Source: Gammaproteobacteria bacterium
Lineage (GTDB): Bacteria; Pseudomonadota; Gammaproteobacteria; Enterobacterales; Kangiellaceae
Length of the DNA stretch: 43,758 bases
Reading direction: 5' to 3'
Assembly: GCA_029880585.1 (NCBI GenBank)
Contig: JAOUOC010000003.1
Location: 1 to 43,758 of the forward strand
Part shown: positions 2,357 through 32,916 of the stretch, in pieces
Numbering within the stretch: the first letter of the stretch is position 1
Layout of the letters: the number at the start of each line of letters is the position of its first letter
The notes under the pieces: model-generated
Seen by the model: the letters and a program-made list of their open reading frames with translations, nothing else
The model's database searches: none
Told to the model about the DNA's origin: nothing
Program-made: the position numbers and the translations under genes

Positions 2357-2941
2357 ATGGAACTCTGGATTACAATTATTGTTGTTATAGTTATTCTTTT
2401 TTATCTCGTTAGCATCTACAACAAGCTGGTTTCTTACAAAAACCGCTTCAAAAATGCTTTCTCTCAAATCGATGTGCAATTACAAAGAAGGTACGATCTG
2501 ATCCCCAATCTGGTTGAAACCGCTAAAGGTTATATGGCACATGAAAAATCCACGCTGGAAGCTGTCATTCAAGCCAGAAATGCAGCGGTAAGTGCGAGTA
2601 AAAGTGCCGCTGACAATCCTGGCGATGCATCAACCATGAAAGAACTGGCTGCTGCCGAAACCTTACTTACCGGTTCACTAGGTAAATTGTTTGCCTTATC
2701 CGAAAGCTATCCCGACTTAAAAGCTAACGAAACAATGAACAATCTTATGGAAGAACTCACAACTACTGAGAATAAAATTGCTTTTGCCCGTCAGGCTTTT
2801 AATGACAGTGTCATGCAATACAACATCCTCAGAGAACAATTTCCAAGCAATATGATAGCCGGTTTTTACGGGTTTGCAGCTGCTGAATTACTTGAAATTG
2901 AAGAGCCCGCCGCTAAAAAACCAGTCAAAGTATCTTTTTAA
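2357..2941 (+). CDS. LemA family protein
   Basis: 194 aa. N-terminal TM, then YNKLVSYKNRFKNAFSQIDVQLQRRYDLIPNLVETAKGYMAHEKSTLEAVIQARNAA, typical of LemA. Confidence 0.95.
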   Translation: MELWITIIVVIVILFYLVSIYNKLVSYKNRFKNAFSQIDVQLQRRYDLIPNLVETAKGYMAHEKSTLEAVIQARNAAVSASKSAADNPGDASTMKELAAAETLLTGSLGKLFALSESYPDLKANETMNNLMEELTTTENKIAFARQAFNDSVMQYNILREQFPSNMIAGFYGFAAAELLEIEEPAAKKPVKVSF

Positions 2942-2965
2942 TTAAACAGGTCTAAAGCAGTTACG

Positions 2966-4957
2966 ATGGACTTTTTTAGCCTGCAAGAAAAAGCCAGAAA
3001 GCAAACCAAATATTTGGTAATGCTATTTCTGGCTGCTGTGCTTGCTATTGTTTTAGCAGTTAATCTATTAGTCTTTTGGGCTATGTCGCAAGACAATAAA
3101 AGTTTAAGTCTTTCCGCCTGGCTGGAAGATCCCCTCTGGATTTACATTTCCGGAGGTTTGCTGGTCATGATCATTATCACCAGTCTTTTCAGAACCAGGC
3201 AACTCAGTGCCTCACCGCAAGCTATCGCACATATGGTTAATGCCACACCAATTTCTGCCAACTCTAAAAACGCTCTTGAAGTCAGGTTGCAAAATGTGGT
3301 TGAAGAAATGTCCATCGCCTCCGGCATGCCTATGCCACAAATTTTTGTTATGAAAGAAGAAGATGGTATTAATGCTTTTGTCGCGGGCACCGATCCTTCA
3401 CAAGTCACTTTGGTTGTCACACAGGGCTTGCTTGAAAATTTATCTCGTCAGGAACTTCAGGGCGTTATTGGTCACGAGTTTAGTCATGTTTTTCATGGTG
3501 ATATGAAAATCAATGTGCGGCTGATTGGTATATTGGCTGGCATTCTTGTGATCGGCCAATTTGGCGAAATGTTGTTAAGAAATACCTCTCGCTCCTCTCG
3601 TCGTTCTTCCAGAGGAAAAAATGGTAATGCCGGTGCAGCTTTAATATTTGCATTCGGATTAATGGCGATTGGTTATATTGGTCTTTTCTTTGGAAGGTTG
3701 ATTAAAGCTGCTATATCCAGACAAAGAGAGTTTTTGGCTGATGCCTCTGCTATTCAATACACAAGAGACAAGCAAGGTATTTGCAATGCACTGTTTAAAA
3801 TAGAATTAAATTCTCAAGGTGCTCTGCTTAATGCAGCCAAGGCTGAAGAAATGAGTCATATGTGCTTTGGTCAATCAGTCAAAATGTTTTTCGCCGATAA
3901 GTTTGCTACCCATCCACCAATCAGGGAACGAATTATTGCTCTGGATCCCAGATTTGATTTTAATGGATTTGTAAACAATACAAATGATATTAGTGATGTT
4001 CCGCTCGATGATAATTCAAACTTTGCTGAAATTGTTTCTGGCCTATCAGCAGCAGGGAACTATTCCACACAAAAATCCGAGAATGATATTAAATCAATAT
4101 TAGAAGAGGAAAAGAATCTCAACTCAGCAAATAAACTTTCCAATAATATAAGCAACGAACAACAAAAAATAGACAAACTTTTGTCCTCTGTTGGAAATAT
4201 GACGGAAAAACAACTTGCAGCTGCCCGTGAAATTATTGCCAGCATTCCAAATAGCTTGCTTGAACTGGCAAGGGGCAAAGCCAATTCAAAATTTGGCTTT
4301 GATTTTATTATTGCCTTGATTACAGCAAATCAACAAACCACAGCTTCATCAAAGAATAAATTTCATAATTTCATGGCCGATAAAAGTTTTCAGGAATTGA
4401 CTATTGAACTGAAAAAACTGGATTTTCGTCAACAGCATATACTTCTTGAAATTGCATTAAACACACTTTTTCCTTTAAGTCAGAATGATAAAAAAGATTT
4501 TTCGATCAAATTAGGGCAATTGATTAATCAGGATAATCGTGTCACTCAAAATGAATTTATGATTTATGCAACAACCTTAAAGAAATTGCTGCCTACTTCA
4601 AAACAAAAAACTATCAATCGCTTTTCTGCTATCAAAACAGAGATCAGCTACTTTTTTAATTTGCTATATCAAAACAGCAACCTGACAACGGAAGAAAAAG
4701 TGGAGCGATTCCAAAAACAAATGCGTCAATTGGGAATTGAAACCGCACAATTGAATAATCAAGCCTTATCGGTCAATAAACTGAATGAAGCCCTGAAAAA
4801 AATTGCCTGCCTGAATAATTTGTTAAAAAAGGATTTTTTGCAAATGTGTATTGATATTGTAGAAAATGACCAACAAATTACACAGTCAGAATTTGAATTA
4901 ATACGTTTGCTTGCAGCCTACATGGCCGTTCCGGTTCCAGTAATACTGCTAAACTGA
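2966..4957 (+). CDS. M48 family membrane metallopeptidase with long C-terminal TerB-like extension
   Basis: 663 aa with TM segments and the zinc motif VIGHEFSHVFHGD; later RQREFLADASAIQYTR. The C-terminal ~300 aa resemble TerB-like helical repeats (e.g. LLKKDFLQMCIDIVENDQQITQSEFELIRLLAAYMAVPVP). Confidence 0.9.
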   Translation: MDFFSLQEKARKQTKYLVMLFLAAVLAIVLAVNLLVFWAMSQDNKSLSLSAWLEDPLWIYISGGLLVMIIITSLFRTRQLSASPQAIAHMVNATPISANSKNALEVRLQNVVEEMSIASGMPMPQIFVMKEEDGINAFVAGTDPSQVTLVVTQGLLENLSRQELQGVIGHEFSHVFHGDMKINVRLIGILAGILVIGQFGEMLLRNTSRSSRRSSRGKNGNAGAALIFAFGLMAIGYIGLFFGRLIKAAISRQREFLADASAIQYTRDKQGICNALFKIELNSQGALLNAAKAEEMSHMCFGQSVKMFFADKFATHPPIRERIIALDPRFDFNGFVNNTNDISDVPLDDNSNFAEIVSGLSAAGNYSTQKSENDIKSILEEEKNLNSANKLSNNISNEQQKIDKLLSSVGNMTEKQLAAAREIIASIPNSLLELARGKANSKFGFDFIIALITANQQTTASSKNKFHNFMADKSFQELTIELKKLDFRQQHILLEIALNTLFPLSQNDKKDFSIKLGQLINQDNRVTQNEFMIYATTLKKLLPTSKQKTINRFSAIKTEISYFFNLLYQNSNLTTEEKVERFQKQMRQLGIETAQLNNQALSVNKLNEALKKIACLNNLLKKDFLQMCIDIVENDQQITQSEFELIRLLAAYMAVPVPVILLN

Positions 4958-30549: not shown

Positions 30550-31368
30550 TCAAAACAATGATTTTTGATATTCTTTTGGAGGATAAAACACTCCAATGAT
30601 TACAAAAGGATTCGGAGCTCTTTTATCCCAAAGCTTAGTTGTGCCAAGGAACAAGTAAATATCATTTTTTGCAAGGAAATTGGTTAGATATTTTTCTTTA
30701 ACTTTCTCAATAGCAATTTGTTCATCTTTGTATTTATTGTAACTTTTCCAATACAAAGCTCCTAATTCCCAATCCTCAATCATCATTTTTGATTCTTTTC
30801 CGTTTACATCTTCAATCTTATACGAAAACTTATATGGTAATTTATCAACTATTTTAAAAGGCTTCTTTTCTTTGTTGAAAAGGTCTCCTTGCAATAACTT
30901 CGCTTTCAATAATTCTATTTTTGATTTATCCCATTCCCTTTCAATTTCTTCAACAACTAAATCTAATATTTTTACAGGACTGAATGTTGCCAAGGAGAGC
31001 AAACCTTCTTTGTTTTTCTGTATCAATTCGCTCAAATCTCTATATATGGTGCTATTTTCTAAAATAAGCTTTTTTCTTTCATACCATCCTTGCTCTGTTC
31101 CGATTCTTTTCAATACTTTGATTGAATCTTGTTTTATTGGTCTAAAGCTTTCTACTCTATGATCTGATTTATTTTTCTCTACCTCAATCTCAATCCATTC
31201 CCACTTTTTATATTTTTTCTCATAATCTTCAATTTGTCTGAATTGAATCGGGTATAACCTTATCCATGAACCATCTTCTCTCAAGCCAGCAGTACATACT
31301 AACTCATCATATGTTTCTGACAAAACTGGATACGTTTTAACTGTGATTAGAACTTTTTCTGTTAACAT
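30550..31368 (-). CDS. Hypothetical protein, probable dual-OB-type partner of DUF488
   Basis: 272 aa. MLTEKVLITVKTYPVLSETYDELVCTAGLREDGSWIRLYPIQFRQIEDYEKKYKKWEWIEIEVEKN; 17 bp downstream of the DUF488 gene, same strand. Domain label is from memory of similar pairs. Confidence 0.65.
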   Translation of the reverse strand: MLTEKVLITVKTYPVLSETYDELVCTAGLREDGSWIRLYPIQFRQIEDYEKKYKKWEWIEIEVEKNKSDHRVESFRPIKQDSIKVLKRIGTEQGWYERKKLILENSTIYRDLSELIQKNKEGLLSLATFSPVKILDLVVEEIEREWDKSKIELLKAKLLQGDLFNKEKKPFKIVDKLPYKFSYKIEDVNGKESKMMIEDWELGALYWKSYNKYKDEQIAIEKVKEKYLTNFLAKNDIYLFLGTTKLWDKRAPNPFVIIGVFYPPKEYQKSLF

Positions 31369-31385
31369 CCTTATTCAAACCATTT

Positions 31386-32270
31386 TTATAAGTGTGATAT
31401 TTTTATGTCTTCATCTATTGTTTTCATCCGCACAGCAATTCTACCTCTGTGACACATGGTATGACTTTCCTCAAAACAGGTAAGCGCAATTCTTTTCTTT
31501 TTGTTGTAGAACTCACAAAGACTTAAAAGCTCTTTTTCACTCTTGTTTAGCGTGTACTTTTCATAATCATCAAATAATCTTTCATAATCTTGGATTGTTT
31601 TTAAACTTTGTCTTTTTTCAGTTACTATACCCAACTCTGGTAAATGGTAATAATCAATCCCTACTTTAAAAAGTACATCTTTCAAAGTTTTTTTAGAAAA
31701 TCCATACTTTCTACTAATCGGATTTTTTCTTACATCAATCAATAGCTTTATATTATTTTTAATTAGCTTGTTGATATACGCCTCCAAAGATATACCTTCA
31801 TAGCCTATAGTAGCAAACAGCTTATCTTCTTGGCTTTCAACTTGATTTCTTATTCTTGCAAGTCCATTCTCATCTAGCACCTCGTGGGCTATTACACTCT
31901 TAATCGCATAATAAGGGTATTTTTCATATACATACCTAATTAATTCTTTGCCCTTCAGATGCTCAAATTTCTGTTTAAATAATTTTAATTTTTTTTCTGC
32001 TCCATTTTTTAATTGCTTTCTAAAAGAAAATGCTCTTTCTCTTATTGTCCAATCGTCTGCATCCATCAAAATACCTGATTCAATCAATTTGTTCTTATCG
32101 GCATAAGATTGAAACGAAAAACAACCAAACTTAAATGGAATAAACTCATAGCTTTTTTCTTTTTCACAAATAGTCGTGTAAAGAAATAAGTATTTTTGAA
32201 AATCTGTACTTTTCAAACTTCCTCCAAATTCTTCTAGGAGTGCTAAAAGTACTTTTTGTCTATAAAACAT
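31386..32270 (-). CDS. DUF488 family protein with N-terminal SocA/Panacea-like region
   Basis: 294 aa. The C-terminal half has DUF488 motifs FATIGYEGISLEAYINKLIKNNIKLLIDVRKNPISRKYGFSKKTL, YYHLPELG and IALTCFEESHTMCHRGRIA. The N-terminal half is VLLALLEEFGGSLKSTDFQKYLFLY...YEFIPFKFGCFSF. Confidence 0.82.
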   Translation of the reverse strand: MFYRQKVLLALLEEFGGSLKSTDFQKYLFLYTTICEKEKSYEFIPFKFGCFSFQSYADKNKLIESGILMDADDWTIRERAFSFRKQLKNGAEKKLKLFKQKFEHLKGKELIRYVYEKYPYYAIKSVIAHEVLDENGLARIRNQVESQEDKLFATIGYEGISLEAYINKLIKNNIKLLIDVRKNPISRKYGFSKKTLKDVLFKVGIDYYHLPELGIVTEKRQSLKTIQDYERLFDDYEKYTLNKSEKELLSLCEFYNKKKRIALTCFEESHTMCHRGRIAVRMKTIDEDIKISHL

Positions 32271-32451
32271 GAAACTATCCTAAGTGGTTCAGCAAGCACA
32301 TTGTATAGAATTTTTCTTAATTAATCTTCAATTGATTTTTCCTGAAATAAATTTTCAAGAGAAATTAACGCTATCAAACTTCATGCTACTACTGAATTTT
32401 ATTTTTTTGTTCCTTATAATGGGAAACCAAACAAAAACATATGGAAAATTT

Positions 32452-32916
32452 ATGCAAATTTGGGTCGATGCCGACGCTTGTCCTGTTGTGATAAAAGAAA
32501 TTCTTTTTCGTGCCGCAAGACGAGAAGAAATTTTGGTGACCTTTGTTTCCAATCACGCTATCAATGTACAAAAATCACCCTTTATCAAGCATTTAATGGT
32601 CGAAAAAGGATTTGATGTGGCCGATAACGAAATTGTAAAACGTATGCAGGGTGGTGATCTGATCATTACCGGTGATATCCCTTTGGCGGATGAAGTGATT
32701 GATAACAATGGTATTGCTCTGAATCCAAGAGGTGAATTGTATAGCAAGGAAAATATCAAATCCCGACTCAATATGAGAGATTTTATGGATACACTCCGCG
32801 CTTCAGGCATTGATACCGGCTCAACACCTTCTCTTAACCAAAACAATCGACAACAATTTGCCAATCAACTCGATAAGCTGATTGCAAAACATCATCGAAA
32901 ACCAAAAACGCAATGA
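32452..32916 (+). CDS. YaiI/YqxD (DUF188) family protein
   Basis: [40 protein letters not shown]. Conserved start is ATG 32452 (154 aa); the extension to 32284 in the ORF track is probably non-coding. Confidence 0.92.

Follow-up and report, generated by a model that had tools for sequence, protein, structure and literature searches.

Two adjacent minus-strand genes, A and B, form a compact cassette in the 43,758-nucleotide window (the whole stretch of DNA analysed), with midA (Methyltransf_28) on one side and a yaiI-like gene on the other. Both open reading frames start with ATG, and B follows A after a gap of 17 bp. Their GC contents (30.1% for A and 30.5% for B) are the lowest among the window genes, and the cassette as a whole (30.3%) lies below each of the 1930 other stretches of equal length in the window, whose minimum is 34.3%; composition was compared inside the window only. 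Lysine makes up 13.3% of A and 14.7% of B, the two highest values among 31 long open reading frames in the window, with the next at no more than 9.5%. The coordinates and spacing of the pair, its richness in A+T and lysine relative to the flanks and the presence of DUF488 in one of the two genes, all put forward in the original prediction, were recovered here. By comparison with homologues, the flanking yaiI gene probably starts near position 32464 rather than at the GTG at 32284.

Table 1. Genes, domains and motifs of the two-gene cassette (window coordinates).
Feature	Position	Strand	Description
Gene A	31386..32270	minus	294 aa; Panacea-like N-terminal domain and C-terminal DUF488; PADLOC PDC-M19A
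N-terminal domain of A	31908..32270	minus	residues 1-121; remotely SocA/Panacea-like
DUF488 domain of A	31389..31820	minus	about residues 151-294
Putative catalytic loop of A	31446..31478	minus	C265-x-E267-...-C273-H274-R275; C, E, C, H and R invariant
Gene B	30550..31368	minus	272 aa; predicted tandem OB-fold protein; PADLOC PDC-M19B
QGDLF, internal candidate sliding-clamp (DnaN) motif of B	30877..30891	minus	residues 160-164
QKSLF, C-terminal candidate sliding-clamp motif of B	30553..30567	minus	residues 268-272

The gene order folK-ptr1-midA-uppP is conserved across relatives, and in all 27 family loci showing that side of midA, ptr1 (folK in one case) adjoins midA with no cassette between them. 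The same-genus ptr1-midA gap is about 50-200 bp, compared with 2.4 kb in the window, where A, B and yaiI lie inside it. The full pair occurs in one of 40 family genomes, the window's own; it was not found at full length in the 39 others examined, four of which have weak matches to the DUF488 domain at best (E 1e-5 to 6e-4). With ptr1 and midA as neighbours in close relatives, the cassette is an insertion, and in our reading one acquired recently and by horizontal transfer. This agrees with the earlier view of a mobile accessory module inserted between housekeeping genes, while the opposite outcome at the midA-yaiI junction, the same locus with normal composition in all relatives, is contradicted. 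That A and B are instead a housekeeping pair of this lineage, with an unusual composition of their own, as their intact reading frames and syntenic housekeeping surroundings might suggest, is contradicted: none of the other 39 family genomes tested has the full-length pair, and relatives lack it at this junction; the lowest GC in the window also speaks against this reading, which we consider highly improbable.

In the window, yaiI (DUF188-like, 32464-32916) separates ptr1 from the cassette. All 15 family genomes tested (14 relatives and the window's own) carry this gene, but in relatives of the same genus the spacing between ptr1 and midA could not accommodate it; one rearrangement may have moved both yaiI and the cassette. 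The surroundings of the cassette showed no conspicuous target-site duplication or flanking repeat, promoter- and terminator-like sites at the cassette were at chance level, and a DNA search found the cassette in no E. coli genome. Relatives of A-B are also located on conjugative plasmids and in Gordonia phages, and many chromosomal copies are solitary, as in the window.

Comparison with the PADLOC models revealed that A matches PDC-M19A (E 1.2e-107, residues 1-293 of 294) and B matches PDC-M19B (E 1.3e-109, residues 1-272), so that both protein components of this entry lie side by side, 17 bp apart. Because PADLOC has full-length models for both genes, the cassette is already catalogued, as the phage-defence candidate PDC-M19, and the description of the pair as an uncharacterised system, in the sense of an unlisted one, has to be withdrawn. 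The PDC label is itself that of a candidate, derived from gene context, and the literature searched contained neither a tested function for PDC-M19 nor papers using that name.

A B alignment, run against 85,462 genomes of named species, recovered no fewer than 557 relatives. The analysis of loci used the 80 best, which span Bacteroidota, several proteobacterial classes, Nitrospirota, Nitrospinota, Acidobacteriota, Spirochaetota and others. In all 80 of these best-scoring loci, A lies directly upstream of B on the same strand, with a spacing that ranges from a 92-bp overlap to a 37-bp gap (median 1 bp, ORF starts unrefined). Within the class, 82 of 369 genomes have a DUF488-type match, and a DUF488 gene is adjacent at each of the 11 strong B matches. 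Among distant pairs on plasmids and phages adjacency is kept and orientation is changed: short DUF488 genes that lack the N-terminal domain are usually convergent with B, and the 3' ends of the two genes often overlap (examples are L173, L174, L172, L215, L014 and L015). The suggested pairing of DUF488 with a dual-OB-like partner thus stands, in the 80/80 co-occurrence and in the OB-like fold predicted for B; neither independent distribution of the two genes nor an unrelated partner fold was found.

DUF488 is a common domain for which we know of no settled activity. A matches the Pfam DUF488 profile over residues 162-279 (E 7e-25; 88.4 bits, above the cut-off of 22.2). The G-Y-E motif and residues D179, R181, Y207, G214, C265, E267, C273, H274 and R275 do not vary across 75 full-length homologues of A; in 14 divergent homologues from bacteria, archaea and phage, G-Y, D, R, Y, L-G, C, E, C, H and R are likewise invariant. 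The AlphaFold2 model of A (mean pLDDT 93.6) gave only weak Rossmann-like matches in a fold search (methyltransferases, the DarG macrodomain and DUSP10), which are compatible with, and no proof of, a rhodanese/phosphatase fold. A sequence search of solved structures retrieved no relative of A or B. Burroughs and Aravind reportedly proposed in 2023, on computational grounds, that the RapZ-C-DUF488-DUF4326 clade acts in DNA-end processing during virus-host conflict. For the related DUF4326 domain, processing of terminal phosphates linked to ribose has been proposed (2022; PMC9503650).

The N-terminal domain of A is remotely similar to Panacea. Profile-profile comparison gave P values of 3e-4 (local) and 8e-6 (global), colinear over 96-97 of the 113 profile columns, against 0.065 for the best of 60 column shuffles and 0.1 or worse for unrelated profiles. 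The HH-suite probability was 31-65% with a 34-sequence profile and 5% in a first test with six Panacea sequences. The Pfam Panacea profile (PF13274) gave no hit for the window's A, and is matched by two of the 75 A homologues (E up to 0.0053). In other homologues the same slot holds ParB_N and HTH_ParB (Sulfolobales), HTH_3 (Streptomyces) or, in the short forms, nothing, and the slot ahead of DUF488 therefore appears to be exchangeable. An archaeal ParB-fold DUF488-HTH fusion binds CTP (PMC12704722). Two Sulfolobales plasmid genes (L211, 2398-3444; L216, 1936-2985) are annotated as ParB partition genes; this annotation is probably misleading, since both end in DUF488 and precede a B homologue.

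Panacea is known as a hyperpromiscuous antitoxin domain (PMC8832971), and here it would occupy the first gene of a two-gene operon; moreover, one phage record labels its DUF488 gene 'HipA toxin'. A and B could by these tokens form a toxin-antitoxin-like pair, in which A, through its Panacea-like N-terminus, would keep either B or the DUF488 domain of A itself neutralised, and DUF488 would become toxic once phage infection disturbs the complex. We regard this as unlikely: the N-terminal domain is dispensable and swapped, as the short, ParB-type and HTH_3 forms illustrate, whereas the DUF488 enzyme motifs and the charged motifs of B stay invariant, and the short forms are mostly convergent and separately transcribed, unlike a toxin-antitoxin operon.

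CST, Teb1, Pot1/Tpz1 and LEF-3 are OB-fold proteins that bind single-stranded DNA or act at telomeres. In the PDB, the AlphaFold2 model of B (pLDDT 86.2) matched CST, Teb1 AB and Pot1/Tpz1 best, and in a set of viral proteins it matched baculovirus LEF-3 best; all these matches are weak (best E 9.5e-4, TM about 0.3). In its predicted fold, B thus resembles tandem-OB proteins that bind single-stranded DNA, a resemblance that we infer from these weak matches. The Pfam DuOB profile (PF22557) gave no match for the window's B; three B homologues match it weakly (best 1.7e-5), and the two with scores shown are below the cut-off. R37, P40, D69-x-R-x-E-S, R98 and D-W-E are invariant in B, and the strict conservation of the charged residues among them across bacteria, archaea and phage suggests that B does more than bind passively.

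B also carries two short motifs, QGDLF internally and QKSLF at its C-terminus, that fit the bacterial sliding-clamp binding consensus QL[S/D]LF or QxxLF (PMC12309361; also PMC4549789). Among the 80 B relatives, the internal motif retains Q in 76, L in 73 and F in 73, and the C-terminal one Q in 73, L in 74 and F in 71, with the middle residues free in both. The pattern Qx[SD][LMI]F occurs 3.0 times per 1000 amino acids in B and 0.04 times in neighbouring ORFs, an enrichment of about 75-fold. The internal motif lies at a block of low model confidence (residues 161-170, mean pLDDT 57) and is present in all 11 divergent bacterial or phage B proteins tested. Both motifs are absent from the two archaeal B homologues examined, which come from related Sulfolobales plasmids, in organisms that use PCNA. 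The QxxLF sites could be structural. A limited literature search did not find the clamp-binding reading of B.

Among 133 ORFs adjacent to the pairs, the most recurrent families belong to restriction-modification systems (ResIII 8, Eco57I 6, N6_N4_Mtase 5, SWI2_SNF2 4 and HSDR_N 3), and none of these families is among the top families of 72 control ORFs more than 7.5 kb away. Four loci from Nitrospirota and Nitrospinota (L086, L090, L099 and L120) are tight type III mod-A-B-res operons, in which the genes overlap or nearly touch, and a fifth (L088) has a mod gene in the same position. An Eco57I-type IIG gene lies directly upstream in L061 and L063. The restriction-modification cases are not all independent, since seven partly related loci share a type IIG island, and most of the 80 loci, the window included, have no adjoining restriction-modification gene. 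A link to such genes recurs among the neighbours and extends to the nested mod-A-B-res operons.

Other surroundings were also seen. In temperate Gordonia phages the pair comes immediately after the immunity repressor, with the integrase nearby; in one of them, Nymphadora, the first base of B coincides with the final base of the repressor gene, a position that would suit expression in the lysogen. The Nymphadora pair corresponds to genes 43 and 42 (L172, 3968-5265), of which the DUF488 gene is the one annotated as a HipA toxin. In L016, a CRISPR array (2854-3397, about 61-bp spacing) lies beside a convergent short DUF488/B pair, whose B reads as two overlapping ORFs and is possibly frameshifted.

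Could the pair serve the maintenance of mobile elements rather than immunity, as a replication or repair accessory comparable to plasmid SSB, RadC and anti-restriction genes? The candidate clamp motifs and OB fold of B, the presence of SSB and RadC among plasmid neighbours, the ParB fusion on Sulfolobus plasmids and CTP binding by the archaeal ParB-fold DUF488-HTH fusion (PMC12704722) would all fit. This explanation accounts less well for the recurrence of restriction-modification genes as chromosomal neighbours, for the pair beside a CRISPR array and for the many copies that stand alone on chromosomes, as in the window, and we hold it to be somewhat unlikely.

The reading that we prefer, and to which we give about an even chance, is that of an enzyme and a single-stranded DNA-binding protein, tethered to the sliding clamp, that process DNA ends or nucleotides in defence. 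A would belong to the DUF488 branch of the rhodanese/phosphatase fold and work as a cysteine-dependent enzyme, probably one that transfers or removes phosphate on nucleic-acid ends or nucleotides. B, with its predicted tandem OB folds, would bind single-stranded DNA and, via its two QxxLF motifs, dock on the bacterial sliding clamp; through both contacts, we propose, it would bring A to replication forks, to gaps or to ends that have just been cut. There the pair would act on invading elements by processing their DNA or its ends, either by itself or in aid of a restriction-modification system, while the domain ahead of DUF488, Panacea-like in the window's A, would regulate or dock the enzyme. 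A more specific version, which we offer tentatively as a possibility, is that PDC-M19 as a whole constitutes a sliding-clamp-tethered immune module, acting as a restriction-modification add-on (in the mod-A-B-res arrangement) or in the superinfection immunity of prophages, whose enzyme A carries an exchangeable sensor domain of the Panacea-like, ParB-CTPase or HTH type. If true, this would represent a restriction-modification add-on that reads replication state. Should B be a clamp client, the cellular address of its partner would be known and the substrate of the enzyme could be tested at forks and DNA ends; the cassette also offers a simple two-gene system for phage tests.

Among known systems, those of the PanTA type resemble the cassette in being two-gene operons whose first gene encodes a Panacea-like domain. 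They differ in that the Panacea-like domain of the cassette is fused to a conserved enzyme domain and is not universal in the family, and in that the partner is conserved, whereas the PanTA partner is a variable toxin. With DUF488-N3a, the active subclade, A shares the DUF488 domain and its conserved C...CHR loop, but it differs by the Panacea-like extension and by a score below the Pfam cut-off (19.6 versus 27 bits); 70 of the 75 close A homologues match DUF488-N3a (E up to 0.01). B may share with DuOB (PF22557) a dual OB fold, as predicted from weak matches, and differs in that the window's protein has no match to the profile. Internal and C-terminal QxxLF motifs are also found in clamp-motif proteins such as IS transposases and PolC (PMC4549789, PMC12309361), from which B is set apart by having two motifs per chain, both of them candidates by sequence. 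Closest of all is PDC-M19 itself, with which the cassette shares both genes at full length and their order, with no architectural difference found. As far as checked, the clamp-binding motif, the Panacea-like domain and the nesting in type III operons are added here, and they make a specific mechanism testable.
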